Part shown: in pieces, positions 46,116-61,826 of the stretch
Layout of the letters: the number at the start of each line of letters is the position of its first letter
How positions within the stretch are numbered: the first letter of the stretch is position 1
Assembly: GCF_019203185.1 (NCBI RefSeq)
Contig: NZ_CP078093.1
Coordinates: 124,001-188,000 of the forward strand
Length of the DNA: 64,000 nucleotides
From: Crassaminicella indica
GTDB taxonomy: Bacteria; Bacillota; Clostridia; Peptostreptococcales; Thermotaleaceae
Reading direction: 5' to 3'
Translations under genes and position numbers: made by a program
Notes under the pieces: model-generated
Seen by the model: only the letters and a program-made list of their open reading frames with translations
Database searches by the model: none
Told to the model about the DNA's origin: nothing

Positions 46116-48266
46116 TTATATATTTACTGTTTTCTTTACAATTTTTCCATTTATATCTACAATATCAAAATGCAATTTTTCAATCTGATCATTTCCTGTC
46201 GAATCAACATTTATATAATAATCCTCATGCTGCTTATAAATCTCAATAACTATTTGAGTGTATATTCCCCTTTTATAATCATAGCTTTTTCCATCATCAT
46301 CATAATAAATATATTTTGCTTTATCTGTAACAAAAGCAATCACATGCAATTCACCATTATCAATACTTTCAACATTTTTAGCAGACTTTCCTAAAACAAG
46401 CATCTTATTTTTTCTTATAAATATTGGTATCTCACTAAAATCAACCTCTAAATACCTATGACCTGCTTTTACTACTTGGTAGCTTCTATCATTATAATCC
46501 TCTACCTTCCATAAAAGCATATCCTCTGGAAGATAAACATATCGACCTTTAGCATTTTCTTCATAAACAGGACTAATCATTAAAGAATCTCCAACTAAAA
46601 GTTGATTCTCTACTCTTTTGGACATTTCATCATCATACTCGAAAGATAATGGCGAAAAATAAATATCCTTATTAATAATAGCCTTCATATATTCAGAATA
46701 AATATATGGAAGAAGTGCATATCTTAGTTTTATTGTATTTTTTATAATATTTTTACTCTCCTCATCAAATGAAAATGGCTCTTGATTCCTTGTTCCCATT
46801 GCTGAATGATTTCTAAAAAGCGGCGTAAACAAACTAAATTGACTCCATCTTATCACTAATTGTGCATTTGCATCTTCATTAAATCCACCTGTATCTGCAC
46901 CGCTATATAAAAATCCACATATATTCAAAGAAGGCATCATCTTTATGTTAAGAAGTATATGCTCCCACCAAGAATGATTGTCTCCAGTCCATACCCCTGA
47001 ATAACGGTGCATACCTATATATGATGCTCTTGAGAATAATAAAAATCTCTTATTAGGAGCAATTTTCTTAAAGCCTTCTGAAGCAGCCCTTGTCATGTTA
47101 TAACCATATAAATTATGCACCTTATAATGATTTACAATTTCTCCATCAATCGTATGATAAAAGCTTTTATAATCATCAATGTTATTAGATAGCTTAATAA
47201 AAGAATCCTTAAGAGAAAAAAACGTATATATATCTAAATTTTCATTTTCTAATTCCTTTGCATGTGCTATTGCTTTTTTTAAGCCTCGATCTGTATAAAA
47301 AATTGCTGGTTCATTCATATCATTCCAAAAGCCTTCTATACCGCAGTCTATTAAAAGCTTATACTTTAAACCAAACCAACGTCTTGCATTAGGATTTAAA
47401 AAGTCAGGAAAATGTACTCTTCCTGGCCACACCGCAGCCACAAAAGGCTTTTCATTTTCATCTAAACAAAAGTAATTATTTTTTACACCCTCTTCATACA
47501 CATCATAATCTTTTTCAATTTTCACACCTGCATCAATGATCGGAATTAATCTAAAACCTTTTTTCTTCATCTTTTTTACAAAATCCTTGAAATTTGGAAA
47601 TCTCTCTTCACTAATAGTAAAATCTTTGAAGTCTTCCATATAATCAATATCTAAATAAATAGCATCACATGGAATGTCATATTTCAAAAAGGAATCTGCT
47701 ATTTTTTCTACCTCTATAGCACTTTGATAACTCCATCTACACTGCTGATAGCCAAAAGCCCATTTTGGCGGTACATACCCATCTCCTATAATATTCAAAA
47801 AGTTTTTTACAATTTCTTTTAGGCTATTTCCCTTTATGATATAAATATCTAAATCATTATCACCTATAAAAATTTCTAAATAATCCTTATAGGTAAATCC
47901 AATATCAAAGATTACTTTACCAGGGTAATCAATAAAAACCCCGAATTTATCTACCCCATCTATGATCAAAAAATTATGTGCACCATATAAGGATTTTTTA
48001 TCAGAGGTATGAAGTGGGTCATCTGAACAAAATGATTCATAAATGCCTCCTCTTTTGTTCATTCCCCTTTGATTTTCTCCAAGTCCTAATACAATATCAT
48101 CATCACCCATCTTATAACTAAGCTTAATCGTTTTCCCTTCCTCTAATTGAAAGAACTCTATTCCTTTTTTCTTTATTTCAATACCTGCCTTTACAACTGC
48201 ATCTGTACAAATAGGATGTCCAAATCTATACTTTATTACCTTTTCATTTATTGCATATGTGATCAC
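46116..48266 (-). CDS. GH31 alpha-glucosidase
   Basis: 716-residue retaining glycosidase releasing glucose from oligosaccharide ends. The catalytic nucleophile Asp is in GFWNDMNEPAIF and the acid/base Asp in GVWTGDNHSWWEH; PPKWAFGYQQCRWSY and the DAIYLDIDYMEDFKDFT block are also standard GH31. No signal peptide, so it acts on imported sugars. GTG 48266 follows AAGGAGAGATAAC. It lies 16 bp after the second permease gene. Confidence 0.95.
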   Translation of the reverse strand: MITYAINEKVIKYRFGHPICTDAVVKAGIEIKKKGIEFFQLEEGKTIKLSYKMGDDDIVLGLGENQRGMNKRGGIYESFCSDDPLHTSDKKSLYGAHNFLIIDGVDKFGVFIDYPGKVIFDIGFTYKDYLEIFIGDNDLDIYIIKGNSLKEIVKNFLNIIGDGYVPPKWAFGYQQCRWSYQSAIEVEKIADSFLKYDIPCDAIYLDIDYMEDFKDFTISEERFPNFKDFVKKMKKKGFRLIPIIDAGVKIEKDYDVYEEGVKNNYFCLDENEKPFVAAVWPGRVHFPDFLNPNARRWFGLKYKLLIDCGIEGFWNDMNEPAIFYTDRGLKKAIAHAKELENENLDIYTFFSLKDSFIKLSNNIDDYKSFYHTIDGEIVNHYKVHNLYGYNMTRAASEGFKKIAPNKRFLLFSRASYIGMHRYSGVWTGDNHSWWEHILLNIKMMPSLNICGFLYSGADTGGFNEDANAQLVIRWSQFSLFTPLFRNHSAMGTRNQEPFSFDEESKNIIKNTIKLRYALLPYIYSEYMKAIINKDIYFSPLSFEYDDEMSKRVENQLLVGDSLMISPVYEENAKGRYVYLPEDMLLWKVEDYNDRSYQVVKAGHRYLEVDFSEIPIFIRKNKMLVLGKSAKNVESIDNGELHVIAFVTDKAKYIYYDDDGKSYDYKRGIYTQIVIEIYKQHEDYYINVDSTGNDQIEKLHFDIVDINGKIVKKTVNI

Positions 48267-48282
48267 GTTATCTCTCCTTATC

Positions 48283-49110
48283 CTATTTTATAGAACCCTG
48301 TGTAACCCCTTTAATGATGTGTTTTTGCGCTGCAAAATAGAATATAATGATAGGAATCATAGCAATTACAAGTCCTGCTAATGCTAAATGCCATTGTTTT
48401 GAATGCTGTCCGAAAAAGTAAAACATCTTTAGTGGAATCGTATGCCACTGAGGTTTATTTATTACCAATTGAGGAAGTAAAAAGTCATTCCATATCCACA
48501 TAGTATTTAATATACCTACAGTAACTGTTATAGGCTTTAGCAGAGGAAATATAATATACCAAAACACTTGAAATTTATTACATCCATCAATAACTGCTGC
48601 CTCTTCCAATTCCTTTGGAATATTCTTAATAAACCCGTGGTACAATATAATAGACAAACTAGATCCAAATCCAAGATACATAAATACAAGACCAACAGGA
48701 TTTAAAAGACCTAATTTCCCCATGATATTTATAAGCGGTAGCATTACTGATTGAAAAGGAATAAGCATTGCAGCCGCAAATAAAAAGAATAAAAATGAAC
48801 TGAATTTTGTTTTAGTTCTAACAAGCATCCAAGCTGCCATAGAAGCAAATATAACAATGATTATTGTGCTAGATACTGTAATAAATAATGAATTGAAAAA
48901 CGAATGGATAAAATCAAGCTCCTTAAAGGCTTCCACATAATTATTTAAACTAAAAAATTGACCAAATGGGAGGCTCATTACATTTAAAAAAATCCCTTTC
49001 TGAGTTTTAAAAGAATTGCTCAATATAATATAAAAGGGTGATAAAAACAAAACACCAAGTAAAATGCTAACAGCCATCACAAATGTTTTATTTCTTCTTT
49101 TACTTTTCAT
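48283..49110 (-). CDS. Carbohydrate ABC transporter permease, MalG type
   Basis: 275 residues, six membrane segments. The EAA-loop motif ELEEAAVIDGCNKFQVFWYIIFPLLKP, which docks to the ATPase, is present (shown by its key start and end). The C-terminus AAQKHIIKGVTQGSIK is typical of MalG-type permeases. Its ATG overlaps the TAA of the upstream permease gene (TAATG), so the two are translationally coupled. Confidence 0.94.
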   Translation of the reverse strand: MKSKRRNKTFVMAVSILLGVLFLSPFYIILSNSFKTQKGIFLNVMSLPFGQFFSLNNYVEAFKELDFIHSFFNSLFITVSSTIIIVIFASMAAWMLVRTKTKFSSFLFFLFAAAMLIPFQSVMLPLINIMGKLGLLNPVGLVFMYLGFGSSLSIILYHGFIKNIPKELEEAAVIDGCNKFQVFWYIIFPLLKPITVTVGILNTMWIWNDFLLPQLVINKPQWHTIPLKMFYFFGQHSKQWHLALAGLVIAMIPIIIFYFAAQKHIIKGVTQGSIK

Positions 49111-49973
49111 TACATTTCTACCTCCCTTTTCTTACTATAATAAATTTGTGTTAATGAAATAGCAGCTACCGTAATTAAAAATATAACCGCCTTTCCTTGT
49201 GCTAAACCAAATTCATTAAACTTAAAAGCCGTATTGTAAATATTCATAGCTAACATTTGTGTAGAATTGTATGGTCCTCCTCCTGTTAATGACAAATTTT
49301 GATCATATAGCTTAAAGGAATTGGATAAAGTTAAAAACAATCCAACTGTAAAAGCAGGTGCCACCAAAGGTATAGTTATATGAATAAGCCTTTCCCAAGC
49401 ATTTGCCCCATCTATTTCTGCCGCTTCAATTAAAGAGTCTGGTATACTTTCTAAAGATGCAATATAAATAACCATCATATACCCTGCCATTTGCCACGAC
49501 ATAAGTATTACAAGCCCCCAAAAGCCTGTAGTTGGATCAGCCAACCAGCCTTCCAAAAAACTTAATCCTAATATTCTTCCCAACGAATCAAAAGCCTTTG
49601 TAAAAATAAACTGCCATACAAATCCTAAAATCAATCCTCCAATTAGATTAGGCATAAAAAATGCACTTCTTAAAAAATTACTTATTTTTAGTCCTCTTGT
49701 TACAAGGAGTGCTAAGCCAAATCCCATTAAATTTATAGTAATAACAGATACAAAAGCAAATTTAGCAGTAAAGATAAAAGCACTTAAAAATTCCTTATCC
49801 TTAAATACATCTATATAATTTTTAAATCCAACCCAATTAGCAGTATTTCCTATGCCATTCCAATCTGTAAATGAATAATAAATTCCCATAAACATAGGTA
49901 AAATAACTACAACAATGAATGCAAACAAAATGGGTCCTACGAAAAAACTAAACCAAAATTTTGAATTCTTCAT
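49110..49973 (-). CDS. Carbohydrate ABC transporter permease, MalF/UgpA type
   Basis: 287 residues, six membrane segments. The EAA motif is IEAAEIDGANAWERLIHITIP; the block NLIGGLILGFVWQFIFTK and the C-terminal TQIYYSKKREVEM are typical of the short MalF/UgpA-type subunits. ATG 49973 follows AAAGGAGGACAAT. A stem-loop lies between this gene and the binding-protein gene. Confidence 0.94.
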   Translation of the reverse strand: MKNSKFWFSFFVGPILFAFIVVVILPMFMGIYYSFTDWNGIGNTANWVGFKNYIDVFKDKEFLSAFIFTAKFAFVSVITINLMGFGLALLVTRGLKISNFLRSAFFMPNLIGGLILGFVWQFIFTKAFDSLGRILGLSFLEGWLADPTTGFWGLVILMSWQMAGYMMVIYIASLESIPDSLIEAAEIDGANAWERLIHITIPLVAPAFTVGLFLTLSNSFKLYDQNLSLTGGGPYNSTQMLAMNIYNTAFKFNEFGLAQGKAVIFLITVAAISLTQIYYSKKREVEM

Positions 49974-49993
49974 ATTGTCCTCCTTTATAGCTT

Positions 49994-50030
49994 TATGGGG
50001 GTTATATACCTTTGGTATATATCCCCCATA
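49994..50030 (-). other. Intercistronic stem-loop after the maltodextrin binding-protein gene
   Basis: TATGGGGGATATATACC pairs with GGTATATAACCCCCATA (one mismatch) around a 3-nt loop. Its place after the binding-protein gene is like the malE-malF interval, where such loops raise binding-protein mRNA levels. Confidence 0.75.
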
Positions 50031-50039
50031 TAATATACC

Positions 50040-51365
50040 TTATCTCATTTTCTCCCACTGAGCCTTTGCATCAGAAATCAATTCTTCCCAAGTATATTCT
50101 CCAGCTAAATATTTTTGAATGTCATTTCCTAAAATTTCCATTCCCCATCCTGTTGGATATCCCATAAATACCCATGGTATAGTCTTTCCATCTTCTGCAT
50201 ATCTCTTAACAGCTTTTCCTAATGGATCTTTAGGTTCAAGATTATCAAATCCTTTTAGTGGAGGTATAAAATAGAATTTGTTCACAATATAATCTTTTCC
50301 TGTATCAGATGTGTATAACCAATTTAAGAAATCCTTAGCAGCAGCCTTTACTTCATCTTTACTATCTTTATTTACTGCCCAATGCATTGGTACACCAACT
50401 GGAATTGAATCTTCCTTAGCTCCTTCAATTGGCATTGGGAGAATATCTAGATTGTTTGCAACCTTTTCATCTACCCCTTTGATTTTTCCATATACCCAGT
50501 TTCCTTGCTGAATTATTGCAACACGCTCTATAGCTAAGCCTTCTTCAGCTTGTCTTGTATAATCAACAGCATTTAACTTTTGTTTTTGATCTTTATTAGA
50601 TGAATAATTTGCTTGTAAATCAATTAATTTTTTTAATCCATCTCCATATTTGAAAGAAACCTTCTCTGCATTAAATGCTTCGATAGAATTACTAAACTCT
50701 TGACCTAAAGCAGCATTTGAAGTATGAAGACCTGTTACCCAAGTTTCTTTTGCAGGATATTCAAATACCGCTTCTAAAAGAGGATATTTTTCCTTTAATG
50801 CACCACTCTTAATCTTCTCATCTAAAGCTTTTACAGCTTCTTCTAAGCTTTTGTAATCTACAATTTTAGCAGGATCAATTCCAGCTGCTTCAAAAATACC
50901 TTTATTATATACAAATCCATATCCTTCAATATTGAAAGGTAATGCAAATACTTTTCCATCTACAGTAGCTCCTTCTAATATTCCAGGAAGAGCCAAATCT
51001 ACCCACGGTTGATCAGATAAATCTTCTAACTTATTCATCCAATCTTTTATATCTTGAGGACCACCTACATTAAAAATGTCTGGCTCGCTTCCAGATTGGA
51101 ATTTTGCTTTTAATGCTGCACCATAATCATCTCCACCACCAACTGTTTGAATATTAATCTTTACATTTGGATGCTCTTTTTCATAAGCAAGTACAGCTTC
51201 TTCTAATTCTTTGGCAATTTCAACCTTGAACTGGAAAACGTTAACCTCTACCTTATCTTTTTCTTCACTGACTTCCTTTTTCTCTTGTGATCCACATCCA
51301 GCAAACAACATCATACTCATAAACACAGTCATAATTAAAGCTAATATTTTTTTAGATTTGAACAT
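50040..51365 (-). CDS. Maltodextrin-type ABC substrate-binding lipoprotein
   Basis: 441-residue family 1 extracellular binding protein. Signal MFKSKKILALIMTVFMSMML ends in lipobox LFAGC (Cys24). The sugar-binding protein features KFQSGSEPDIFNVGGPQDI and ALPFNIEGYGFVYNKGIFEAAG are clear. ATG 51365 follows AAAGGGGGAGATAATT. It delivers alpha-glucosides to the two permeases downstream; the flanking GH31, malQ and glgP argue for maltodextrin. Confidence 0.93.
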   Translation of the reverse strand: MFKSKKILALIMTVFMSMMLFAGCGSQEKKEVSEEKDKVEVNVFQFKVEIAKELEEAVLAYEKEHPNVKINIQTVGGGDDYGAALKAKFQSGSEPDIFNVGGPQDIKDWMNKLEDLSDQPWVDLALPGILEGATVDGKVFALPFNIEGYGFVYNKGIFEAAGIDPAKIVDYKSLEEAVKALDEKIKSGALKEKYPLLEAVFEYPAKETWVTGLHTSNAALGQEFSNSIEAFNAEKVSFKYGDGLKKLIDLQANYSSNKDQKQKLNAVDYTRQAEEGLAIERVAIIQQGNWVYGKIKGVDEKVANNLDILPMPIEGAKEDSIPVGVPMHWAVNKDSKDEVKAAAKDFLNWLYTSDTGKDYIVNKFYFIPPLKGFDNLEPKDPLGKAVKRYAEDGKTIPWVFMGYPTGWGMEILGNDIQKYLAGEYTWEELISDAKAQWEKMR

Positions 51366-51380
51366 AATTATCTCCCCCTT

Positions 51381-52481
51381 TTACAAGCTTATATTTTTTT
51401 CACTATCATAATCAAATATATGACAGCTCTCCATATTGATAATAAACTTTTGCTCAGTACCAACCTTTAAGTCCCTGGCATCTAAAGAATCTATTCTAGC
51501 CGTCATTTGTAAATTTCCAATACTAAAATATATGAAGGTTTCATTTCCCATATGCTCTAGTACATCAATTTTACCCTTGATAGCTTCTTTAGATTCATGG
51601 TTTCTAATGCCTATATACTCTGGTCTAATACCAAACCATACTTTTTTGCCAATATGGCTCTTTACTTTTTTACATTTACTCAATGGTAAATCTAATGCCA
51701 TCCCCCCTATTTTTACAGCAATATTGTTATTCTTTTCAATTAACTCTCCCTCTACAAGATTCATAGCTGGAGAACCTATAAAACCTGCCACAAACTTATT
51801 AGCTGGATAATGATACAGATTTAGTGGCGTATCAACCTGCATGATTTTTCCTAAATTCATTACACATATCCTATCTCCCATTGTCATTGCTTCTACTTGG
51901 TCATGTGTTACATAAATCATAGTTGTTTTTAGCTTTTTATGAAGCTGTGATAGCTGAACCCTCATATGAACCCTTAGCTTTGCATCTAAATTAGATAAAG
52001 GCTCATCAAACAAGAAAACCTCTGGATCTCTTACAATAGCTCTTCCTACAGCAACCCTTTGCCTTTGCCCTCCTGATAACTGCTTAGGTTTTCTATCCAA
52101 TAAATTTTCTATATCTAAAATTTTTGCTGCTTCTCTTACCTTTTTCTCAATAATACTTTTTGGAGTTTTCCTCATTTTTAATGAAAAAGCCATATTATCA
52201 TAAACTGTCATATGAGGGTATAATGCATAGTTTTGAAAAACCATAGCTATTCCTCTATCCTTAGGTGCAATATTATTTACAATGCTTTCTCCTATAAAAA
52301 TAGTTCCTCCACTTATTTCTTCAAGACCTGCAATCATTCTCAACGTAGTTGATTTAGCACATCCCGATGGACCAACAAAAACCATAAATTCTCCATCCTT
52401 TATTTCTAAGTCAATTCCATGAACAGCCTTAAAACCATTTGGATAAATTTTTTCGACTCCTTTTAAAACTACTTTAGACAT
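51381..52481 (-). CDS. MsmX/UgpC-type sugar ABC transporter ATPase
   Basis: 366-residue ATPase with the C-terminal MOI/TOBE region of carbohydrate importers. Signature QLSGGQRQRVAVGRAIVR, Walker B EVFLFDEPLSNLDAKLR and switch IYVTHDQ are canonical. Walker A reads GPSGCAKST, with Ala where Gly is usual; this variant keeps Lys and Ser and is probably functional. ATG 52481 follows TAGGAGGAGGACA. It lies between the LacI regulator and the binding-protein gene, so it serves this importer. Confidence 0.95.
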   Translation of the reverse strand: MSKVVLKGVEKIYPNGFKAVHGIDLEIKDGEFMVFVGPSGCAKSTTLRMIAGLEEISGGTIFIGESIVNNIAPKDRGIAMVFQNYALYPHMTVYDNMAFSLKMRKTPKSIIEKKVREAAKILDIENLLDRKPKQLSGGQRQRVAVGRAIVRDPEVFLFDEPLSNLDAKLRVHMRVQLSQLHKKLKTTMIYVTHDQVEAMTMGDRICVMNLGKIMQVDTPLNLYHYPANKFVAGFIGSPAMNLVEGELIEKNNNIAVKIGGMALDLPLSKCKKVKSHIGKKVWFGIRPEYIGIRNHESKEAIKGKIDVLEHMGNETFIYFSIGNLQMTARIDSLDARDLKVGTEQKFIINMESCHIFDYDSEKNISL

Positions 52482-52491
52482 TGTCCTCCTC

Positions 52492-53511
52492 CTAAAACAA
52501 TTTTTTGCAAGATTCCCTAATCAGTAATTCTATATCAAAAACTATATGCTCATGTTCTTTACTATTATTCATCAAATCAAATAAAATCTCTATACTTTTT
52601 TGCCCCATCTCTTCTACAGGCTGCTTAACTGTTGTAATAGACGGATGAAAATACTTTGAATATTCAATCCCATCAAATCCAACTACAGAAATATCTTCAG
52701 GAATTTTTAATCCTCTGCTTAAAATTGCCTTTGCAGCACCTATAGCCATAATATCAGAAGTAACAAATACTGCTGTCAATCCTAAATCCTTATCTAATAG
52801 CTTATTCATAGCATCAAATGCAGATTCAAAGGTATAGTGTCCAAATTCTAAAAATTGTTCGTTATAATTTATTTTATTTTCAGCTAATGCTTTTTTATAA
52901 CCTTCAAATCTCAGCTTTCCAACATTTTTATCTCCTTCCCCAGTAGTAATGATTGCAATTTTTTTATGCCCTAATCTGCATAAATAATCTACTGCTTTAT
53001 ATGCTGCTTTCTCATTTTCAATCGCAACACTAGAAAAAATATTTTTATTTACTTTATCAGTAATATTTATAGATGTAAGCACTATTGGTGTTTTCAGATT
53101 CATTAATTGCTCTTCTTCTAAATTATCAAAATCACCTCCCAGACAAATCAAGCCTTTTAACTTCTTCTCTTTTATAAGCTCGATAGCAGCTTCAATATCA
53201 TTAGTGTTATCATCATTATAATGAAGAATCATAGAATAGCCTTCTTCATCTATTTTTTCTTCAATTGACCGAATCATCTTTGAAAAAAATGGATTATAAA
53301 TCCCTTTTACTAATACACCAATATTTTTAGAACTGTTTCTCTTCAAATTTCTTGCACTATTATTAGGAATATAATTACATTCTTCTATAACCTTTAATAC
53401 TTTCTTTCTTGTTTCATCTTTAACATCTGGATGATTATTTAAAACACGAGATACCGTACTTACTCCAACTCCTGCAATTTTTGCGATATCTTTTATGCTA
53501 AAATTCTTCAT
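52492..53511 (-). CDS. LacI-family transcriptional regulator of maltodextrin genes
   Basis: 339 residues. The N-terminal headpiece SIKDIAKIAGVGVSTVSRVLN has the LacI helix-turn-helix, hinge YIPNNSARNLKRN follows, then a sugar-binding core (VAIENEKAAYKAVDYL, TAVFVTSDIMAIGA, SVVGFDGIEYS). ATG 53511 is preceded by GAGAGG at 7 bp; an upstream TTG (53517) is less likely. It is the first gene of the operon, and the two operators at 53534-53565 just upstream suggest that it represses itself and the transport and glucosidase genes. Confidence 0.93.
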   Translation of the reverse strand: MKNFSIKDIAKIAGVGVSTVSRVLNNHPDVKDETRKKVLKVIEECNYIPNNSARNLKRNSSKNIGVLVKGIYNPFFSKMIRSIEEKIDEEGYSMILHYNDDNTNDIEAAIELIKEKKLKGLICLGGDFDNLEEEQLMNLKTPIVLTSINITDKVNKNIFSSVAIENEKAAYKAVDYLCRLGHKKIAIITTGEGDKNVGKLRFEGYKKALAENKINYNEQFLEFGHYTFESAFDAMNKLLDKDLGLTAVFVTSDIMAIGAAKAILSRGLKIPEDISVVGFDGIEYSKYFHPSITTVKQPVEEMGQKSIEILFDLMNNSKEHEHIVFDIELLIRESCKKLF

Positions 53512-53533
53512 ACCCAAACCTCTCTTTTGGTAT

Positions 53534-53779: not shown

Positions 53780-55216
53780 CTATTTTAAACTCTTTATTTT
53801 TTCCAAGCTTTCTACTGCTTCTTTTTCTGTTATCATCTCATTAGGATAAAATTTCCCGTCCTTTAGTGCCATTAATCCATTTTCCACAATAATTTCAACA
53901 ATTCTATTATTTTTAACCTCGTCTATATCTTTTATATTCACCATTCCTTCTTTGTCCTTTAAATCTTTAAGCATATAAAGCGTTTGAGCAAATTCTTCTC
54001 TTGTCACCTTTTCGTCTGGATAAAAATAATCTTTTTCTGCTTTTACATAACCTGATAATACTGCTGTTTCAATATAGTCAAAATTAGGATCGTCTACTGT
54101 AACATCCTTGAATGTCCCATATATATGTCCCTTATGTTCTTTTTTATAGTACTTTGATGTAGGTGCAAATATTCCTTTATGCTTAAACTTTACAGTCATC
54201 TCTGCCAAGCTCTTTCTTGTTAATGGTTCATCTTTTTTAAACTCATCTAAGCTATCTATTAATTCAGGATAAAACATACGACTAAGCTCCAATACACCTT
54301 TAGAAAATCTAAAGGTTGGACTTGAAACTAATTTTTCATTAATTGTATATACTCTTCCTTCTTTAACAGCTTTTATCGTATCAAAGCCAGGACGAATAGA
54401 AATAGAATGTAAATTTCCTCCTGCATTCATAGCACCTCTTTGAGAAACATAAACATCTATTTCATCTGCTTTTTCAAGTATTCTTTCTGCTCCAAAGCTT
54501 GCAATACTTGTTCCTTTTCGAATCGGCTTTGCATCAACTGCAATATTATTTCCTCCTGCAAGTTTAATTGCCATTGCAGCCATTGAATCATTTGTTATTG
54601 TACGATATTCAGTTTCTGTAGATTCAAAGAAAACATTTACTTTTGGTTTTATGTTTTTTGTAATACTTTCCAATTCTTTTAAATCATTATTAAATTTTGT
54701 TAACAACTTTTCTGCTACAGCTTCTTTTCCTGTTAAAATAGCCAGCTTCTTAATATAATTAGGAAACTCTTCAAACTTATCAGGATATAAAGAAACCACA
54801 TTAATTCCTGTATTTTCTAGTGCTTCTACAAATTCAGGTTTACTTTTTTTAATAAATGGACGAATAAGTACCAAATCAGGCTCTACTGCAATAACCTTTT
54901 CTGGATCAGCTCGATAATCAAAACGCTTCTTATTCATTACTGCTGCAGGATAAGCATCACTTTTACCAATTCCAATTATCTCATTATCTAATCCTAAAGC
55001 AAACAAATTTTCTGTATGAGCTGAATATAAAGAGATTATTTTCTTTGCTGGTTCGTCCATTCGAACAATTTTTCCAGAATCATCCTTAAATTCAATCTTA
55101 CTAAAATTGTTGTCACCTTTTACTACATCTTCATTTTCACTTTCATTTTTAGAACAAGCTCCTAAAATACTCATAACGAGTATTAAAATTAATAATATAG
55201 ATATTTTTCTTTTCAT
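53780..55216 (-). CDS. Cobalamin/metal-chelate binding lipoprotein with SLH-like C-terminus
   Basis: 478 residues. Lipoprotein signal MKRKISILLILILVMSILG ends with lipobox GACS. A BtuF/FecB-type helical-backbone binding domain follows (KKIISLYSAHTENLFALGL, IAVEPDLVLIRPF, GVLELSRMFYPELIDSL). From about residue 355 there are SLH-like repeats (FKDVTVDDPNFDYIETAVLS, DYFYPDEKVTREEFAQTLY, GKFYPNEMITEKEAVESL) that could bind cell-wall polymer. Start at 55216 follows GGAGGGGGAAAA. It partners the FecCD-type permease and ATPase under the riboswitch; a terminator-like hairpin separates it from the CbiK-like gene. Confidence 0.88.
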   Translation of the reverse strand: MKRKISILLILILVMSILGACSKNESENEDVVKGDNNFSKIEFKDDSGKIVRMDEPAKKIISLYSAHTENLFALGLDNEIIGIGKSDAYPAAVMNKKRFDYRADPEKVIAVEPDLVLIRPFIKKSKPEFVEALENTGINVVSLYPDKFEEFPNYIKKLAILTGKEAVAEKLLTKFNNDLKELESITKNIKPKVNVFFESTETEYRTITNDSMAAMAIKLAGGNNIAVDAKPIRKGTSIASFGAERILEKADEIDVYVSQRGAMNAGGNLHSISIRPGFDTIKAVKEGRVYTINEKLVSSPTFRFSKGVLELSRMFYPELIDSLDEFKKDEPLTRKSLAEMTVKFKHKGIFAPTSKYYKKEHKGHIYGTFKDVTVDDPNFDYIETAVLSGYVKAEKDYFYPDEKVTREEFAQTLYMLKDLKDKEGMVNIKDIDEVKNNRIVEIIVENGLMALKDGKFYPNEMITEKEAVESLEKIKSLK

Positions 55217-55286
55217 TTTTCCCCCTCCAATTATTAGCAAGCATTACATAATTATATCTAAATTTTAGCAACATTTCCTATATAAA

Positions 55287-55323
55287 ATAACAAGTAAATG
55301 AGATGCTCTCATTTACTTGTTAT
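55287..55323 (-). terminator. Hairpin between the CbiK-like gene and the binding-protein gene
   Basis: ATAACAAGTAAATGAG and CTCATTTACTTGTTAT form a perfect 16-bp stem with a 5-nt loop, then TTTATATAGG. Likely a partial terminator within the operon. Confidence 0.75.
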
Positions 55324-55327
55324 AATT

Positions 55328-57070
55328 TTATTTTTCTTCCCCTTCAATAGCTTTTCTTGCATGCTCTATATAAATATCTTGATATTTTTCATTTTCACCT
55401 AAACCATGAAGATAAGTATTTACAGTAAATCCTTTGCTCTTAAGGATTGTCTTCCATGAATCCTCTTCATCTCCTGCCATATCGTTATTTGCATGATCTC
55501 CTGCAACAAGCATATATGGCATTAATGTTACTTCTTTAATGTTTTTAGCTTTTAATTTCTCTATAACATCCTCTAAAGCAGGATATCCTTCTACCGTTCC
55601 TACAAATACATTTAACCCCTCATCATCAAGTACACTTTGTAAGCACGCATAGCTTGCATTTGCAGGATGATGTGTTCCGTGTCCCATTACTACAACAGCT
55701 TGTCCTTCTTTAAGCTCTGGTAATTGTGATTTTAATGCTTCTACTGCTACCTTATAATCATCTGGAGTATTTAAAATTGGTGTACCTACTGCTATTTTTT
55801 TAAATGTATTTTCATATTTCTTTACTACTTCTAATAAATCATTATATTCAGCACCTGCTATAACATGAAGTGGCTGAACAATAACTTCTTCAAAACCTTC
55901 TTCCTTCATTTTGTTTAAAGCTTTCTCTGGTGTGTCTACTAAAATATTATCTCTGTCCTTTAACTTTTTGATAATAATATCAGAAGTAAAAGCTCTTCTT
56001 ACTTCATATTCTGGAAATGCTTTTTGTATTTTTTCTTCAACTGCATCAATCGTAACCTTTCTTGTATCTGCATAGCTTGTTCCAAAGCTCACTACAAGCA
56101 TTCCTTTTTTACCTTCTTGCCAATTTCCTTTTTCAACACATTTAACTGGAGCAGGGATTTCTTCTCCTTTTCCCTCAATAGAATCCTTTACATGATTTAC
56201 ATAAATCTCTTGATATTTTTCATTTTCACCCAAACCATGAAGATAAGTATTTACAGTAAATCCTTCGCTTTTAAGGATTGTCTTCCATGAATCCTCTTCA
56301 TCTCCTGCCATATCGTTATTTGCATGGTCTCCTGCAACTACCATATATGGCATTAATGTCACTTCTTTAATATTATCTTTCTTTAACCTTTTAATAACAT
56401 CGTCTAATGCTGGATATCCTTCTACTGTACCAACATAAACACTTAAATTATTGTCATCGATTACATATTGTAAATCAGCATAACATGCATTTGCAGGATG
56501 TTCTGTTCCATGTCCCATCACTACAACAGCTTGTCCTTCTTTAAGCTCTGGTAATTGTGATTTTAATGCATCAACAGCCACTTGATAATCTTCCTGATGA
56601 GTTAGGATAGGTCTTCCTAATACAAACTTTTCAAAAGTTCCATCATTATATTTTCTAAGTTCTTCTTTGATATCACTGTACTCAGCACCAGGCATAATAT
56701 GTAATGGTTGAACAATTACTTCCTTAAAGCCTTCTGCTTTTAATTTATCCATTGCCTTAGCAACTGTATCCACTTCTATATTATCTCTGTCCTTTAACTT
56801 TTTGATAATAATATCAGAAGTAAATGCCCTTCTCACTTCATATTCTGGGAATGCTTTTTGTATTTTTTCTTCAACCGCATCAATTGTAACCTTTCTTGTG
56901 TCTGCATAGCTTGTTCCAAAGCTTGCAACTAATATTGCTTTTTTCACTTCCTTACTCTCCTCTTTTGCTTGATCTTGTTCTGCAGATGTTTCTTTTTTTG
57001 CACAACCTGCAAAACCAGCTACTACCAACATCAACGCTAAAATAAAACTTAAAATTCTAATCTTTTTCAT
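55328..57070 (-). CDS. Lipoprotein with two tandem CbiK-type cobaltochelatase domains
   Basis: 580 residues. The signal MKKIRILSFILALMLVVAG leads to lipobox FAGC (Cys23), so the protein should face outward. Two CbiK domains follow (about 44-300 and 322-575), each with ILVASFGTSYADTRK-like start, MGHGTxHPAN (His187 and His464) and AGDHANNDMAGDEEDSWKTI (His249 and His526), so both likely keep metal-binding histidines. CbiK inserts cobalt into sirohydrochlorin in cobalamin synthesis and is normally a single-domain cytoplasmic enzyme. The halves share long identical stretches, so duplication is recent. ATG 57070 follows AAGGGGTGGTATT. Its role here is unproven. Confidence 0.9.
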   Translation of the reverse strand: MKKIRILSFILALMLVVAGFAGCAKKETSAEQDQAKEESKEVKKAILVASFGTSYADTRKVTIDAVEEKIQKAFPEYEVRRAFTSDIIIKKLKDRDNIEVDTVAKAMDKLKAEGFKEVIVQPLHIMPGAEYSDIKEELRKYNDGTFEKFVLGRPILTHQEDYQVAVDALKSQLPELKEGQAVVVMGHGTEHPANACYADLQYVIDDNNLSVYVGTVEGYPALDDVIKRLKKDNIKEVTLMPYMVVAGDHANNDMAGDEEDSWKTILKSEGFTVNTYLHGLGENEKYQEIYVNHVKDSIEGKGEEIPAPVKCVEKGNWQEGKKGMLVVSFGTSYADTRKVTIDAVEEKIQKAFPEYEVRRAFTSDIIIKKLKDRDNILVDTPEKALNKMKEEGFEEVIVQPLHVIAGAEYNDLLEVVKKYENTFKKIAVGTPILNTPDDYKVAVEALKSQLPELKEGQAVVVMGHGTHHPANASYACLQSVLDDEGLNVFVGTVEGYPALEDVIEKLKAKNIKEVTLMPYMLVAGDHANNDMAGDEEDSWKTILKSKGFTVNTYLHGLGENEKYQDIYIEHARKAIEGEEK

Positions 57071-57132: not shown

Positions 57133-57894
57133 TTATAAGCTTGGTAGAATAACCAAACCTTTCTCTTCAGTCTTTCTTATAGCTACACCAAACAATTCCT
57201 TGATCAACTCTTTTGTCATCACATCCTCTGTTTTTCCATATTTCGAAATTTTCCCATCTTTTAATGCCAATATTCTATCACTAAACATATGTGTTAAATT
57301 CAAATCATGCATAATAGCTATAACAGTAAGATGCTCTTTCTCAATACAATCCTTTAATAAATTTAAAAAATAAATAGTATACTGAATATCCATATTTGAA
57401 AAGGCTTCATCTAAAAATAATACCTTTGGCGTTTGGGCTAGAGCCTTTGCTAGCATAACTCTTTGTTTTTCTCCCCCACTCAATTCAGTAATAGGAATAT
57501 CAGAAAATTTTAGCGTATCTGTCATCTCCATGCATTCTCGTACTATCTTCATGTCTTTTGGGGTTAAATTCTTCATACGACTCTTAAATGGATTTCTTCC
57601 CATCATCACAACTTCTAAGCATGTAAAAGGGAATCTAATATCTACATTTTGAGACACAAAAGCTATTCTTTTACTTAAATCTTTTATACTATAGTCTTTC
57701 AAGCATTTATTTTGAAAATAAATATTTCCACTATATTTATGAAATTGTCCTGTAATCAAGCTAAGTAGGGTAGTCTTTCCTGAACCATTTGGCCCAATAA
57801 TCGTTGTAAATTTTCCTTGTTCAATAAAAAAACTAATATCATGTAAAATTTCTTTATCATCGTATGAAAAAAATAAATTTTTTACTTTATACAT
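57133..57894 (-). CDS. ABC ATPase of cobalamin/siderophore-type importer (BtuD/FecE-like)
   Basis: 253 residues. Walker A GPNGSGKTT, signature ITELSGGEKQRVMLAKALAQ, Walker B KVLFLDEAFSNMD and switch IAIMHDLN are intact. MGRNPFKSR is typical of the FecE/BtuD branch. ATG 57894 follows AAAGGGGGCTAAT, 16 bp after the permease gene. With the permease and the SLH binding protein it forms a complete importer, most likely for corrinoids given the riboswitch. Confidence 0.93.
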   Translation of the reverse strand: MYKVKNLFFSYDDKEILHDISFFIEQGKFTTIIGPNGSGKTTLLSLITGQFHKYSGNIYFQNKCLKDYSIKDLSKRIAFVSQNVDIRFPFTCLEVVMMGRNPFKSRMKNLTPKDMKIVRECMEMTDTLKFSDIPITELSGGEKQRVMLAKALAQTPKVLFLDEAFSNMDIQYTIYFLNLLKDCIEKEHLTVIAIMHDLNLTHMFSDRILALKDGKISKYGKTEDVMTKELIKELFGVAIRKTEEKGLVILPSL

Positions 57895-57910: not shown

Positions 57911-58972
57911 TTAGTGCAGCGATTTATTTCTCGTCATAAAAATATATATGAAGAATGGTCCTCCAAGCAATGTTGTAAGCACACCTACAGGAATTTCTAT
58001 ATTCATCAATACTCTTGCACCTGTATCTGCTACCAATAATAATTCTGCACCAAGTAATGCTGAAAGAGGAATCAAAGTACGGTTATCAGACCCAATACAA
58101 AATCTAAGCATATGTGGCACAATAAGACCTATAAAGCTGATAATCCCACTTACAGATACGCATACAGCCGTAATGAATGAACCACATATTAAAAAAATCC
58201 TTCTTACACTTTGTGTATCAATACCTAACAATTTTGCTTCTTTCTCTCCCAAGCAAAGAAGATTCAAATCCTCTGAAAAATATATACAAATAATTATACA
58301 TAATATTATCATCGGAAAACTCATCAAAACATGTTCCCAGCTTCTTGCTGATAAGCTTCCCATTAACCAATTCACAATAGGTGCAACGTTTTCTCCTGCT
58401 AGATTTTTTAAAAACTTAATACCAGCTGAAAGAATAGATGTCACTATAATTCCAGCAATAATCAAATTTGAAGAGCTTAAAACTCCTTTAACCTTAGCAA
58501 TAGAAATCACAATACCTAATGTTATAAATGCACCAATAAAAGCACACGCTGTTATAGGAACTTGAAAATTATCCATCAAAAACATATTTATAAAAAGTGC
58601 TAGTGCTGCTCCAAAGGCTGCTCCAGATGAAACACCCATAGTATAAGAATCTGCCAATGGATTCATAAGCAACGACTGAAAAACAGCCCCTGAAACTGCC
58701 AAACCACTTCCTACTATCATTGCTGTAAAAATTCTTGGAAGCCTTACATTCCAAACAATAGCCACATAAGAAGCTTTTATATAACTATACACAGACTCAT
58801 TTCCTGTAATTTTTCCAAATATAATTTTTACAACATCATAAGCACGAATATTTGCTCTCCCTAAATGAACTGATGAAAAAAAAGTGATAATCAATAAAAC
58901 TAAAAAACAAATACCAATGATTTTCTCTTTATACCGTTTTTGCTGTATAGTCAAAGCCAAATTATTCTCCAT
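57911..58972 (-). CDS. FecCD-family permease (BtuC-like) of cobalamin-type importer
   Basis: 353 residues with about nine to ten membrane segments. Family blocks include VWNVRLPRIFTAMIVGSGLAVSGAVFQSLLMNPLADSYTMGVSSGA (key ends given) and SFIGLIVPHMLRFCIGSDNR. ATG 58972 follows TGGAGGAATT. First gene of the operon, 37 bp after the riboswitch-controlled terminator, so cobalamin should repress it. Confidence 0.94.
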   Translation of the reverse strand: MENNLALTIQQKRYKEKIIGICFLVLLIITFFSSVHLGRANIRAYDVVKIIFGKITGNESVYSYIKASYVAIVWNVRLPRIFTAMIVGSGLAVSGAVFQSLLMNPLADSYTMGVSSGAAFGAALALFINMFLMDNFQVPITACAFIGAFITLGIVISIAKVKGVLSSSNLIIAGIIVTSILSAGIKFLKNLAGENVAPIVNWLMGSLSARSWEHVLMSFPMIILCIIICIYFSEDLNLLCLGEKEAKLLGIDTQSVRRIFLICGSFITAVCVSVSGIISFIGLIVPHMLRFCIGSDNRTLIPLSALLGAELLLVADTGARVLMNIEIPVGVLTTLLGGPFFIYIFMTRNKSLH

Positions 58973-59008: not shown

Positions 59009-59035
59009 TAAAAAAAGAGCTTCTCGGAAAGCTCT
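59009..59035 (-). terminator. Riboswitch-controlled terminator
   Basis: AGAGCTT and AAGCTCT form a stem (loop TCCGAG region), followed by TTTTTTT on the minus strand, between the riboswitch and the first gene. Confidence 0.87.
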
Positions 59036-59125
59036 ATATACACAGTAAAATGGTTTTAACATATCAAAATCTCCATTTTTTACTAGTCTATTCTACTTTC
59101 CCTCCGAAAGAATGAATATTAACAA

Positions 59126-59280
59126 TTAGGCAGGTCTCCTGGCTTGGCTTCATTTTACTCCTTAACCTTCCCAAAGCAAACAGCTTCAGTGGTTTTAAAG
59201 TTTCATCCACCTCACAGTAGCGGGGGCTGCAGTGGCTTTTACCACTTTCCCTTTTAATTCTTAAAGAAACCTAATATTCT
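59126..59280 (-). promoter_or_regulatory. Cobalamin riboswitch
   Basis: The B12 box AGCCAGGAGACCTGCC is at 59144-59129. Upstream parts fit the consensus: GGTTTCTTTAA, AAAAGGGAAAGTGG, CCACTGCAGCCCCCGCTACTG and GGATGAAAC. The terminator downstream gives transcriptional repression when cobalamin binds. Confidence 0.96.
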
Positions 59281-59485
59281 GTATGAATTTGTCAATAACA
59301 CCTTTAATTATATATAATCATAAAAAGCATGTCAATAATAAGATTATTTTTAGTTTTGAGTATACAAAAACAAAACAGACTACTTAATTTTATATATTTT
59401 CGGTTTTAAAAGCTTATATTGATTAATTAGATTGATTCTGTTAGAGTTATAATTGAATTTAAAAACAGGAGGCAGCAATGAATAA
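59281..59485. other. Divergent region between the riboswitch and the ABC-2 genes
   Basis: About 200 bp, AT-rich. It ends with AGGAGG (59467-59472) and a three-codon frame ATG-AAT-AAA-TGA (59478-59489) that overlaps the next ATG. No strong sigma-A boxes were recognised on either strand. Confidence 0.45.
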
Positions 59486-60334
59486 ATGAAGCATATAATT
59501 GAGATCAAAAAAGTAACAAAAAAATATGGAGATTTTACAGCTGTAGATAATTTAAGCTTAAAGATTCAAAAGGGAAGCTTTTTTGGCCTCTTAGGTCCTA
59601 ATGGTGCAGGAAAAACTACACTTATTAAAATGCTTGTAGGGCTATTAAAGCCAACTAAGGGAACTATCCTTATTGAAAACCAAAAAATGAATCGTGACAA
59701 TACTTTCATCAAAAGTAAAATTGGCATTGTTCCTCAGCATATCAACCTCGATAAAGAACTTTCTGTAAGAGAAAATCTTATTTTTTCTGCAAAGCTTTAT
59801 AAAATAAAAGGAAATCAACTTCATCAAAAGATTGAAAAATTATTAGCTTTTTCAGATCTAAAGTCTATAGAAAATAGACTTAGCAAAAAATTATCTGGTG
59901 GTATGCAAAGAAAATTAATGATTACTAAAGCATTGGTTAATGATCCTGATATTCTTTTTTTGGATGAACCTACTGTAGGAATTGATGTAAATCATAGAAG
60001 GAAAATATGGGATATGCTAAAAGGAATGAAGGCTATGGGAAAAACAATCATTCTTACAACTCACTATATTGAAGAAGCTGAATATCTTTGCAATCAAATA
60101 GGTCTTATGGATCAAGGAAAAATATTTTATTGTAATACAAGCGATGCTTTAAAAAACAATCTTGGTAAATTTACTGTCGAATATTTTAATACAGAAAAAA
60201 TAACAGAATATAAGTATTTTCAATCTATAGAAGAAGCAAAAGAATATGCTCATTCACTTGATACACATTATATTTTGAGAAATACAAATCTAGAAGATGT
60301 TTTTTATAATTTTACGAATAGGAAGGTACAATAA
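59486..60334 (+). CDS. ABC-2 type exporter ATPase
   Basis: 282 residues. Walker A GPNGAGKTT, signature LSGGMQRKLMITKALVNDP, Walker B ILFLDEPTVGID and switch LTTHYIEEAEYL match the DrrA/CcmA class of drug or polysaccharide exporters. The family's C-terminal extension is present. ATG 59486 is 14 bp from AGGAGG, which is too far; the tiny frame MNK at 59478 has ideal spacing and its TGA overlaps this ATG, implying coupling. The next gene encodes the membrane partner with no gap. Confidence 0.93.
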   Translation: MKHIIEIKKVTKKYGDFTAVDNLSLKIQKGSFFGLLGPNGAGKTTLIKMLVGLLKPTKGTILIENQKMNRDNTFIKSKIGIVPQHINLDKELSVRENLIFSAKLYKIKGNQLHQKIEKLLAFSDLKSIENRLSKKLSGGMQRKLMITKALVNDPDILFLDEPTVGIDVNHRRKIWDMLKGMKAMGKTIILTTHYIEEAEYLCNQIGLMDQGKIFYCNTSDALKNNLGKFTVEYFNTEKITEYKYFQSIEEAKEYAHSLDTHYILRNTNLEDVFYNFTNRKVQ

Positions 60335-61066
60335 ATGGAAGTTTTCACAATACTTTGGCGAGAATTTGCTTTTTTCAAAAAAAGAGCTTTCAAAATTACT
60401 TCTTCTGCAGTCATCACTCCTCTTTTATATTTATTAGCATTTGGATGGGGACTAGGAGCAGATGTTTCCATAGAAGGATATAGTTATCTACATTATATTA
60501 TTCCTGGAATAATTGCTATGTCTACAATGCATACAAGCTTTAATGCTGTAGCCATTAGAATTTCTGTAGCAAGACTTCACGAAAAAAGCTTTGAATACTA
60601 TCTAACAGCACCTGTAAATATGTATTTATTAACACTAGGCTACGTCATAGCTGGAGCATTACGTGGTTTTTATGCGGGATGTATCATTTTAATAGTCTCT
60701 TATCTATTTGGTGCTTATATCAATATTACATTTTCTTTTTTGCTAATATGCTTTTTGAACAGTCTTCTCTTTGCTGCTTTTGGATATTTTGCAGCAATGG
60801 TCATAAATACTCATTATGACATGAATCGCTTCACAAGCTTTGTCATTACACCTATGACCTTCTTATGTGGAACATTTTTTTCATTAGAAAAAATGCCATA
60901 TATTATAAAAAGAATCATAGAGATACTTCCTCTTACCCATGCTATAATGGGGCTAAGAAATATCGCACTCAAAGGAATTACTAATTATTTTTCAATATTT
61001 ATATTACTTACATACTTTTTAATCCTTTATGCCTTAGGTGTATATGCAAGCTATAGAGAAATATAA
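60335..61066 (+). CDS. ABC-2 type exporter permease
   Basis: 243 residues with six membrane segments; IITSSAVITPLLYLLAFGWGLG-like N-terminal block and the conserved FVITPMTFLCGTFFSLEKMP (ABC-2 signature) are clear. Its ATG directly follows the TAA of the ATPase gene. Being upstream of cobI on the same strand and next to a cobalamin-riboswitch operon, a link with corrinoid or metal traffic is possible but unproven. Confidence 0.91.
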   Translation: MEVFTILWREFAFFKKRAFKITSSAVITPLLYLLAFGWGLGADVSIEGYSYLHYIIPGIIAMSTMHTSFNAVAIRISVARLHEKSFEYYLTAPVNMYLLTLGYVIAGALRGFYAGCIILIVSYLFGAYINITFSFLLICFLNSLLFAAFGYFAAMVINTHYDMNRFTSFVITPMTFLCGTFFSLEKMPYIIKRIIEILPLTHAIMGLRNIALKGITNYFSIFILLTYFLILYALGVYASYREI

Positions 61067-61118: not shown

Positions 61119-61826
61119 ATGTCAAAATTTTATGGAATTGGTACTGGCCCTGGAGACAGCTCTTTGGTTACAGTAAAAGCAGTAAACACACTTAAAAAAT
61201 TAGATGTTCTTTTTGCTCCTCAACCAAAGGAAGGGGGAGAAAGCTTAGCTTTATCTATTGTCAAGGAATATATTTTACCTAAAACAGAAATAAAGCAAAG
61301 ACACTTTCCAATGAATTTCAATGATGAAGAAAGAATAAATGCTTGGAATAAAATTGCAAAATCAATAGAAAATGAAGTAAAAAGTGGAAAAAATGTGGGC
61401 TTTATTACTTTAGGAGATCCAATGCTTTACAGTACTTATGTTTATATTTTAGAACTTTTAAGAGGAAAAGTAGAAATAGAAACAATCCCGGGAATCAGTG
61501 CTTTTTCAAATATTGCTTCAAGTCAAAACTTTCCTCTTGTCATGGACCGAGAAGCTTTGGTAATACTACCATGTACCGCTGATGAAGAAAAAATTGATTT
61601 TACGTTAAAAAATTATAACTCTATTGTACTAATGAAAGTATATAAAAATTTCAAGGAAATAATTAAAAAGCTTAAAAAATACGATTTAATCAAATATGCA
61701 ATCCTAGTAAGCAATTCTTCTCAAGACCGTGAAATAGTTTATCATGATTTGGAAAATATTAGAGAGGATCAAATATCATATTTTTCAACTATATTAATTA
61801 ACAAAGAAAACTACCACAATAAGTAA
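61119..61826 (+). CDS. cobI: Precorrin-2 / cobalt-factor-II C20-methyltransferase
   Basis: 235 residues, SAM-dependent tetrapyrrole methylase of cobalamin synthesis (CobI/CbiL). Marks are MSKFYGIGTGPGDSSLVTVKAV, GFITLGDPMLYSTYVYI and IPGISAFSNIASS. Start is ATG 61119; an open frame continues upstream but overlaps the permease gene. The ribosome site AGGAGG lies 33 bp upstream, with a perfect 9-bp hairpin (AACGAATAC / GTATTCGTT) between, which would bring it to normal distance. The only clear corrin-ring gene here. Confidence 0.9.
   Translation: MSKFYGIGTGPGDSSLVTVKAVNTLKKLDVLFAPQPKEGGESLALSIVKEYILPKTEIKQRHFPMNFNDEERINAWNKIAKSIENEVKSGKNVGFITLGDPMLYSTYVYILELLRGKVEIETIPGISAFSNIASSQNFPLVMDREALVILPCTADEEKIDFTLKNYNSIVLMKVYKNFKEIIKKLKKYDLIKYAILVSNSSQDREIVYHDLENIREDQISYFSTILINKENYHNK

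Follow-up and report, generated by a model that had tools for sequence, protein, structure and literature searches.

A predicted double-CbiK lipoprotein in a cobalamin-riboswitch locus of Crassaminicella indica and its possible role in cobalt insertion outside the cytoplasm

The double CbiK protein and its locus

We analysed a stretch of 64,000 nucleotides (hereafter the window) from the genome of Crassaminicella indica (NCBI RefSeq assembly GCF_019203185.1, contig NZ_CP078093.1, positions 124,001 to 188,000 of the forward strand), which carries a gene for a predicted lipoprotein with two CbiK cobaltochelatase domains. The gene lies next to genes for a BtuCDF-like importer under a cobalamin riboswitch, with divergent genes for an ABC-2 exporter and CbiL on the other side of the riboswitch. 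Positions are those of the window unless a contig or locus is named, and G, C, L, f and g numbers are our handles for genomes, contigs, loci, families and genera. The protein itself is laid out as follows.

55328..57070, minus strand: lipoprotein with two CbiK cobaltochelatase domains, the main feature (open reading frame (ORF) list, Pfam, NCBIfam, structure model)
57002..57070, minus strand: predicted signal peptide, with a lipobox (FAGC) that ends in Cys23 (by inspection of the sequence; a similar pattern was applied to relatives)
56162..56944, minus strand: CbiK domain 1, about amino acids 43-303, with His187, Glu217 and His249 (profile match and residue alignment)
55331..56113, minus strand: CbiK domain 2, about amino acids 320-580, with His464, Glu494 and His526 (profile match and residue alignment)

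The ORF starts with ATG and encodes 580 amino acids. Its N-terminus, MKKIRILSFILALMLVVAGFAGC, reads as a classic lipobox (FAGC) with Cys23, and the protein is predicted to be exported and lipid-anchored. The Pfam CbiK family PF06180 matches it twice, both times as a full-length domain, with 692 bits for the whole protein (cut-off 26.2), and the NCBIfam model NF047852 for sirohydrochlorin cobaltochelatase reaches 623.7 bits over two stretches (cut-off 400). The active-site His, Glu and His residues are intact in both domains; among 131 exported CbiK domains (duplicates included) they are kept in 131, 131 and 130, respectively, the last count reflecting one gap. The AlphaFold2 model consists of two domains with a mean pLDDT of 84, residues 1-39 being below 50. 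Its best Foldseek matches were 1qgo (CbiK), 2xvz and 2xvx (CbiK-P) and 9b86 (FetB), and the TM-score to 1qgo was 0.93 by target length. Profile, active-site residues and modelled fold place the protein in the CbiK cobaltochelatase family. The surrounding features are the following.

59307..59335, minus strand: sigma-70-type promoter of the importer/chelatase operon, TTGACA-17-TATAAT, 12/12 (consensus scan, directly upstream of the riboswitch)
59289..59318, plus strand: promoter-like site, 11/12, facing the ABC-2 exporter and CbiL genes (consensus only)
59112..59289, minus strand: cobalamin riboswitch aptamer RF00174, 121.6 bits (gathering score 31.5)
59016..59035, minus strand: terminator-like hairpin and T run between riboswitch and btuC, the likely expression platform (hairpin scan)
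57911..58972, minus strand: BtuC-like permease, FecCD family (ORF, Pfam, NCBIfam)
57133..57894, minus strand: BtuD-like ATPase (ORF, Pfam, NCBIfam)
55287..55323, minus strand: terminator-like hairpin of 17 pairs separating the CbiK gene from the BtuF gene (hairpin scan)
53780..55216, minus strand: BtuF-like substrate-binding lipoprotein with C-terminal SLH motifs (TTG start at 55240 in the ORF list; ATG at 55216 more likely)
59486..60334, plus strand: ABC-2 exporter ATPase (ORF, Pfam)
60335..61066, plus strand: ABC-2 exporter permease, of a distinct subfamily co-occurring with exported CbiK (Pfam and own profile)
61119..61826, plus strand: CbiL, cobalt-factor II C20-methyltransferase (NCBIfam; the sole CbiL found in the genome)

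The promoter at 59307..59335 is a perfect site in a consensus scan whose total site count was not above that of shuffled sequences. RF00174 was present in 11 of the 12 exported-CbiK loci scanned, and none was found in L199. A preliminary description of the locus had read it as a lipid-anchored double CbiK, with His motifs in both domains, beside a BtuCDF-like importer in a cobalamin-riboswitch operon. All of this agrees with our results, the anchoring at the level of prediction. The meaning of the locus, in turn, comes from points absent from that description, namely the ABC-2 exporter and CbiL genes on the opposite strand and the lack of any other recognisable CbiK/CbiX or CbiM/NicO in the genome.

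The genome (2.76 Mb, one contig) contains an anaerobic B12 operon with its own riboswitch at about C1:2066-2085 kb. Its translations were interpreted as CbiA, P, B, CobD, CbiC, D, E, T, F, G, HemA, CbiH, J, SirC, HemC, CobA-HemD, HemB and HemL, where only CbiD and the TP-methylase members were profile-matched and the rest were named by reading. Two consecutive enzymes, the chelatase and CbiL, are missing from this operon, and profile searches placed both the sole CbiL and the sole PF06180 protein of the genome in the window cluster. A full match to CbiX (PF01903) was not found in this genome outside the lipoprotein. One candidate for a second chelatase, a PF01903 match at C1:2241524, was rejected. 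It is a half match at the Pfam cut-off in a 394-amino-acid membrane protein (G000:C1:2241020-2242204, L063:521-1705) whose first motif, judged by eye, lacks the His, and weak matches in frames of similar length occur also in genomes with CbiX or cytoplasmic CbiK. The window lipoprotein is the only recognisable CbiK/CbiX chelatase of the genome, despite the otherwise present anaerobic corrin pathway. Neither CbiM (PF01891) nor NicO (PF03824) was found in the genome, in searches that did not include CobN, CbtX or other candidate transporters.

CbiL needs a ring that already contains cobalt, and no cytoplasmic CbiK/CbiX or CbiM/NicO could be recognised; most simply, then, insertion would take place outside and the metal would come in as cobalt-sirohydrochlorin. 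We propose, with a probability of roughly 0.55, that the cluster unites cobalt capture and cobalt insertion in one module, which works through the cycle described below and replaces the CbiM-type importer and cytoplasmic chelatase in anaerobic B12 synthesis. Judged separately, it is likely that the module stands in for cobalt import plus cytoplasmic chelation, and the insertion of cobalt probably takes place outside. The preliminary description had left it open whether the protein loads, strips or holds cobalt or tetrapyrroles outside before uptake; among these options, the comparative evidence favours the loading of cobalt.

We call the transporter only BtuCDF-like because its components missed every NCBIfam cut-off among the matches listed, including those for BtuC (257 bits against 461, and 229 against 334 for a second BtuC model), BtuD (134.6 against 281) and BtuF (41.6 against 234). 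Among the best 25 of 194 families compared, the top score of the BtuD-like ATPase was to a haem-transporter model, below its cut-off. This score would suit an alternative in which the exported CbiK removes metal from, or returns it to, environmental haem, sirohaem or degraded corrinoids so that they can be taken up, as in FetB/IhtB, and the B12 operon serves salvage. FetB has the CbiK fold (9b86) and is described in a passage of PMC13402209 as a chelatase making Mn-protoporphyrin IX, and some exported CbiKs carry extra domains, one of them with a weak NEAT match. The corrin pathway of the genome, the lack of another recognisable chelatase and the cobalamin element above the locus all speak against such salvage, which we regard as distinctly unlikely.

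The SLH (cell-wall/S-layer) motifs at the end of the BtuF-like protein recur in eight of nine relatives scanned (L035-L040, L042 and L075; not L054). A binding protein tied to both the membrane and the wall is unusual.

Exported CbiK across the order

We searched 297 genomes of the order for PF06180, CbiM, CbiX and CbiD and retrieved 139 CbiK loci. CbiD was present in 191 genomes, of which 166 were classified; the 25 left out include many with CbiK matches below those listed. The classes comprise 36 genomes with exported CbiK only, 11 with exported CbiK and another chelatase, 78 with cytoplasmic and no exported CbiK, and 41 with CbiX only. Export was called by our own hydrophobicity/lipobox rule, not by SignalP. 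G228, which has an ABC ATPase joined to its CbiK (CbiO-CbiK), and 13 genomes with a CbiK-CbiL fusion were set to cytoplasmic by hand, and for these 13 later results supported the setting. The presence of CbiM, CbiX and CbiD was also copied by hand, counting strong matches (E<1e-20 for CbiM, <1e-15 for CbiX). CbiM matches were split by open-frame length only, and the long form may be of the nickel type.

CbiM was absent from 29 of the 36 exported-only genomes and 9 of the 11 with a further chelatase, compared to 13 of the 78 with cytoplasmic CbiK and none of the 41 with CbiX only. The exported-only class thus differs from the cytoplasmic and CbiX-only classes taken together (29/36 vs 13/119; Fisher 4e-15, relatedness ignored). 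By family, the absence in exported-only genomes versus others was 5/7 vs 0/6 in f1, 5/5 vs 1/10 in f2, 4/7 vs 9/53 in f4 and 13/15 vs 1/22 in f11, and counted by genus it was 20/26 vs 4/59. We also counted neighbours in the retrieved order loci that had 4 kb or more of sequence on each side of CbiK. A BtuC gene was present within 3 kb in 26 of the 34 loci with exported and in 7 of the 72 with cytoplasmic CbiK; for the ABC-2 permease, within 4 kb, these counts were 18 and 6, so both mark exported CbiK. In a named set, where exported CbiKs are over-represented owing to an exported query, 48 of the 61 exported CbiKs have BtuC at a distance of up to 6 kb. BtuC, the ABC-2 permease and CbiL were all present within 6 kb of 13 of these 61, including Tepidibacter, Desulforamulus, Pelosinus and Anaerospora.

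The ABC-2 permease was traced with a profile (A2) built from 19 rows out of CbiK loci, which means that those loci match by construction. The scores are sharply bimodal, with 46 genomes at or above 302 bits and further matches at or below 112. The permease was present in 25 of 36 exported-only genomes, 10 of 11 with exported CbiK and another chelatase, 4 of 78 with cytoplasmic CbiK and 1 of 41 with CbiX only, or 35/47 with exported CbiK vs 5/119 without. In families f1 and f4 together it occurs in 15/15 genomes with exported CbiK vs 1/59 without. The co-occurrence does not come only from neighbourhood, as the permease can be far from the CbiK locus (in G029 it is on contig C4 and CbiK on C29).

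These patterns bear on a second alternative, in which the exported CbiK scavenges Co(II), with or without a tetrapyrrole from the environment, and passes the metal to the BtuFCD-like importer. Chelation would then be cytoplasmic, either spontaneous or of the SirC/CysG type, and the pathway would involve no turnover outside. Such scavenging would account for the absent CbiM/NicO and for the in-place replacement by CbiMQO described below with no need for an exporter, and 11 of the 36 exported-only genomes indeed lack the ABC-2 subfamily. It leaves unexplained why cytoplasmic CbiK/CbiX is missing too, why the exporter travels with the locus and why the exported domains keep a chelatase active site. 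The family to which the BtuFCD-like importer belongs is known for transporting chelates and tetrapyrroles rather than bare ions. We consider scavenging alone unlikely.

Two genomes seem to document exchanges between the exported and the cytoplasmic arrangement. In G023, orthologues of the window PBP, FabI and CbiL (64, 71 and 81 % identity) flank a locus in which a riboswitch is followed by genes for two small proteins that look exported, for CbiM, CbiQ and CbiO, and for a signal-less CbiK, and the profile search found no ABC-2 permease in this genome. G043, of the same genus, has BtuCD, a double CbiK lipoprotein and BtuF at the locus with the ABC-2 pair and CbiL (the FabI/PBP side was not retrieved). 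CbiMQO and a cytoplasmic CbiK thus apparently replace the exported module at one locus in G023. In G202, CbiK starts with MKIKK and continues directly with the sequence that follows the linker, signal peptide and linker having been lost in frame, and the DNA upstream resembles, by eye, the 3′ end of the G194 BtuD gene. BtuC, D and F were not found in the G202 locus, whereas CbiM is present in the genome. A lipoprotein CbiK and BtuCDF occur in all three classified congeners of G202, in one of them (G241) together with a long CbiM.

The loss of the signal segment in G202, a genome with CbiM that has also lost the importer, speaks to the concern that the predicted signal is unused and CbiK is cytoplasmic throughout. 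Export is called here from sequence prediction only, which leaves room for such an artefact. We nevertheless find it extremely unlikely, given the clear lipobox after the hydrophobic core of the window protein, the periplasmic label of Desulfovibrio CbiK in structure titles, and the named set, where our home-made rule called 44 of the 61 exported proteins lipoproteins and found another signal in the remaining 17.

A different role for the exporter is suggested by G202, where the ABC-2 pair is kept beside the signal-less CbiK, and by family f11, where CbiL, the ABC-2 pair and a signal-less CbiK stand beside SirC-HemC-CobA-HemD genes for the synthesis of sirohydrochlorin (L248, L249, L253, L254 and L257). 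Of the five genomes behind these f11 loci, G288, G289, G042 and G285 also hold an exported CbiK, and none was found for G168. The pair could serve detoxification, pumping out sirohydrochlorin that is in excess or carries the wrong metal, without any connection to the exported CbiK; the latter, together with the importer, would recover leaked cobalt-tetrapyrrole. The association of the pair with exported CbiK in f1 and f4 is closer than general detoxification predicts, and we regard a pump of this kind as very unlikely. The gene content of the f11 clusters speaks for a connection between the exporter and sirohydrochlorin, but not for the order of steps.

CbiK was also found in fusions. There are 13 cytoplasmic CbiK-CbiL fusions, in family f4 (e.g. 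L048:4644-6122), and one CbiO-CbiK fusion (L049:3726-5393), which connect CbiK with both CbiL and the entry of cobalt.

A proposed cobalt cycle and the tandem domains

In the proposed cycle, sirohydrochlorin (factor II) made in the cytoplasm would be exported by the ABC-2 pair, and the membrane-anchored double CbiK would insert Co(II) into it outside. The BtuF-like lipoprotein and the BtuCD-like importer would return the cobalt-sirohydrochlorin, which CbiL would methylate for the corrin pathway to continue, and the riboswitch would shut the importer/chelatase operon once B12 suffices. Two domains, or three as found elsewhere, would offer more capture sites per anchor. The export signal, the active sites, the gene order, the riboswitch, the lack of another recognisable CbiK/CbiX or CbiM/NicO and the patterns of co-occurrence and replacement can be read from sequences. 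From these we infer that chelation outside the cytoplasm would belong to the biosynthetic route, with sirohydrochlorin as the exported and cobalt-sirohydrochlorin as the imported substrate. Of the individual steps, export of sirohydrochlorin by the ABC-2 pair is an even bet.

Published affinities offer a reason for capturing cobalt outside. For Salmonella CbiK, a passage of PMC10206600 gives a Km for Co(II) of 0.79 nM with sirohydrochlorin, against a KD of 14 nM for Co(II) alone. This Km is well below the values of 1e-7 to 1e-8 M given for cobalt uptake by CbiMNQO and NhlF in a passage of PMC7689651. Sirohydrochlorin could then act as a cycled 'cobaltophore', exported by ABC-2, loaded with cobalt at very low concentration by the tethered multi-headed CbiK and returned by the BtuFCD-like importer to CbiL, an idea which we put forward tentatively, at slightly less than even odds.

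Several observations weigh against the extracytoplasmic module. The transporter components fall short of the BtuCDF models, and the search for cobalt importers in the window genome was confined to two families. SirC-type enzymes related to CysG/Met8p can show chelatase activity and sirohydrochlorin can take up cobalt without an enzyme, so a cytoplasmic route of cobalt insertion may exist. Seven of the 36 exported-only genomes hold a CbiM-family protein (five long forms, perhaps for nickel, and two of CbiM length, G011 and G043), and the 13 genomes with cytoplasmic CbiK and no CbiM have to be set beside them. A NicO search of 50 genomes gave one weak match, in G072, a congener of the window genome. 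The counts are inflated by relatedness, as the CbiK tree contains six changes between exported and cytoplasmic forms. Among five independent sister pairs, the absence of CbiM goes the same way in about three, shows no difference in about two and is opposite in none, a number of pairs that cannot reach significance; the presence of ABC-2 behaves similarly, with one opposite pair in a few pairings. With only about six independent switches, tree-corrected statistics are weak. CbiL was found within 4.5 kb of 12 of the 34 exported and 49 of the 72 cytoplasmic CbiKs in the order loci, so it goes with both forms and its neighbourhood is no mark of the exported one. As for the exporter, at least 11 of the 35 ABC-2-positive genomes with exported CbiK supplied a row of the profile, the link is weak in f2 (5/8 vs 2/10, p 0.14), and 11 of the 36 exported-only genomes lack the subfamily. 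The ABC-2 pair also stands beside a signal-less CbiK in G202, which the cycle does not predict, and in several f11 genomes, so the exporter may have a different function.

Should the module operate in the proposed way, it would be one answer both to the role of exported CbiK and to the existence of CbiK bacteria without known cobalt transporters. Cobalt would be scavenged by the chelatase, carried by the tetrapyrrole and brought in through the 'B12 importer'. BtuCDF-like annotations would then need correction in many genomes, where these genes may mark producers of B12, not scavengers. Many gut, rumen and sediment Clostridia and Negativicutes would have an obligatory extracytoplasmic step in B12 synthesis, with an intermediate open to cross-feeding or theft between species. 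This would amount to an unrecognised strategy of metal acquisition, and B12 precursors could be public goods in gut and rumen communities.

The two CbiK halves of the window protein are identical at 201/260 amino acids and 632/780 nucleotides, and the preliminary description took them for recent duplicates. This interpretation did not hold. In a FastTree tree of 249 CbiK domains (branch support not examined), N halves are nearest to N halves and C halves to C halves across genera g1, g2, g5 and g8, which puts the duplication probably before the genus; the exception is genus g3 (G043), where the two halves are near each other. The nucleotide identity between the halves is patchy, from 0.62 to 0.95 across 20-codon blocks, and the young look probably comes from later local homogenisation, perhaps gene conversion. 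The search for the same fusion elsewhere, suggested in that description, did recover tandem CbiK lipoproteins in other lineages. Most exported CbiKs are single-domain, and among 226 proteins with domains counted (some genes twice, from two collections) 19 are double and two triple. Apparently separate duplications in L043/L044, L066, L067/L085, L069, L070 and L072 and the triples L068 and L071 indicate that tandem CbiK recurs.

The three-CbiK lipoproteins are L068:18-2945 (975 amino acids) and L071:9770-12469 (899 amino acids), the latter in a record labelled sheep rumen. Judging from the translations, a domain C-terminal to CbiK (about DGxYxIxVxSSSSMFRV) recurs in L067, L068, L085, L132 and L135, and the exported CbiK of L135 has a further region, whose NEAT match is under the Pfam cut-off. 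Outside the CbiK locus, the window contains a T-box leader (RF00230) at 11209-11425 on the minus strand, with 98.1 bits. The adjoining operon at 46116-53517 on the minus strand appears from its translations to serve sugar uptake, with a LacI-type regulator, an MsmK-like ATPase, a sugar-binding lipoprotein, two permeases and an alpha-glucosidase-like enzyme.

Relation to known systems

To our knowledge, exported CbiK proteins have no settled role so far. Our literature searches covered titles, abstract openings and passages; in these we met no description of an export-loading-reimport cycle, and the term 'cobaltophore' led to no paper. Tandem CbiK, the missing chelatase and importer, the link to an exporter and the locus swap with CbiMQO and cytoplasmic CbiK were not found in these searches either. 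The preliminary description had suggested that handling of cobalt or tetrapyrroles outside the membrane by such a protein beside an importer would be a new arrangement. However, exported CbiK adjoining BtuCDF is widespread, and both exported CbiK and the adjacency of CbiK to BtuCDF are already known or partly in print.

Among the closest known systems is CbiK-P of Desulfovibrio vulgaris (PDB 2xvx/2xvy/2xvz), which has the CbiK fold in common with the window protein and is periplasmic according to the structure titles. It differs in having one domain and in residing in a Gram-negative periplasm. D. vulgaris reportedly has two functional CbiK enzymes, whereas the exported protein is the only recognisable one in the window genome, and we take the CbiK of the Desulfovibrio B12-element regulon to be CbiK-P. 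Passages of PMC545781 place cbiK-cbiL and btuCDF of Desulfovibrio under one B12 element and mention delta-proteobacteria of the CbiK type without known cobalt transporters. In the same passages, CbtX is proposed as the missing cobalt transporter and btuCDF is read as B12 transport.

FetB/IhtB of Porphyromonas gingivalis (PDB 9b86) resembles the window protein in its CbiK fold. It is a single-domain protein in a context of iron, haem and Mn-porphyrin, where we saw no link to the corrin pathway or CbiL. We also take FetB/IhtB to be a surface lipoprotein. According to a passage of PMC13402209, this chelatase makes Mn-porphyrin that accumulates at the surface. Such insertion of metal into a porphyrin is a partial precedent for the proposed mechanism.

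CbiK of Salmonella (PDB 1qgo, 2xwp) is 42 % identical to the window protein in the structural match and, according to a passage of PMC10206600, inserts cobalt into sirohydrochlorin. In contrast to the window protein it is a cytosolic, single, small protein without double domain or signal. In Sulfurospirillum multivorans, a de novo producer, a passage of PMC7755780 shows CbiK, BtuC, BtuD and BtuF adjacent inside the cbi cluster. BtuCDF is annotated there as a corrinoid importer, and the likeness to the window locus is one of gene adjacency. The CbiMNQO/CbiMQO ECF importer, which occupies the corresponding riboswitch-controlled locus in G023, is the apparent functional alternative to the module; it differs in that it imports Co(II) itself and that its partner CbiK is cytoplasmic. 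If this cycle does operate, the whole system would count as a new kind.

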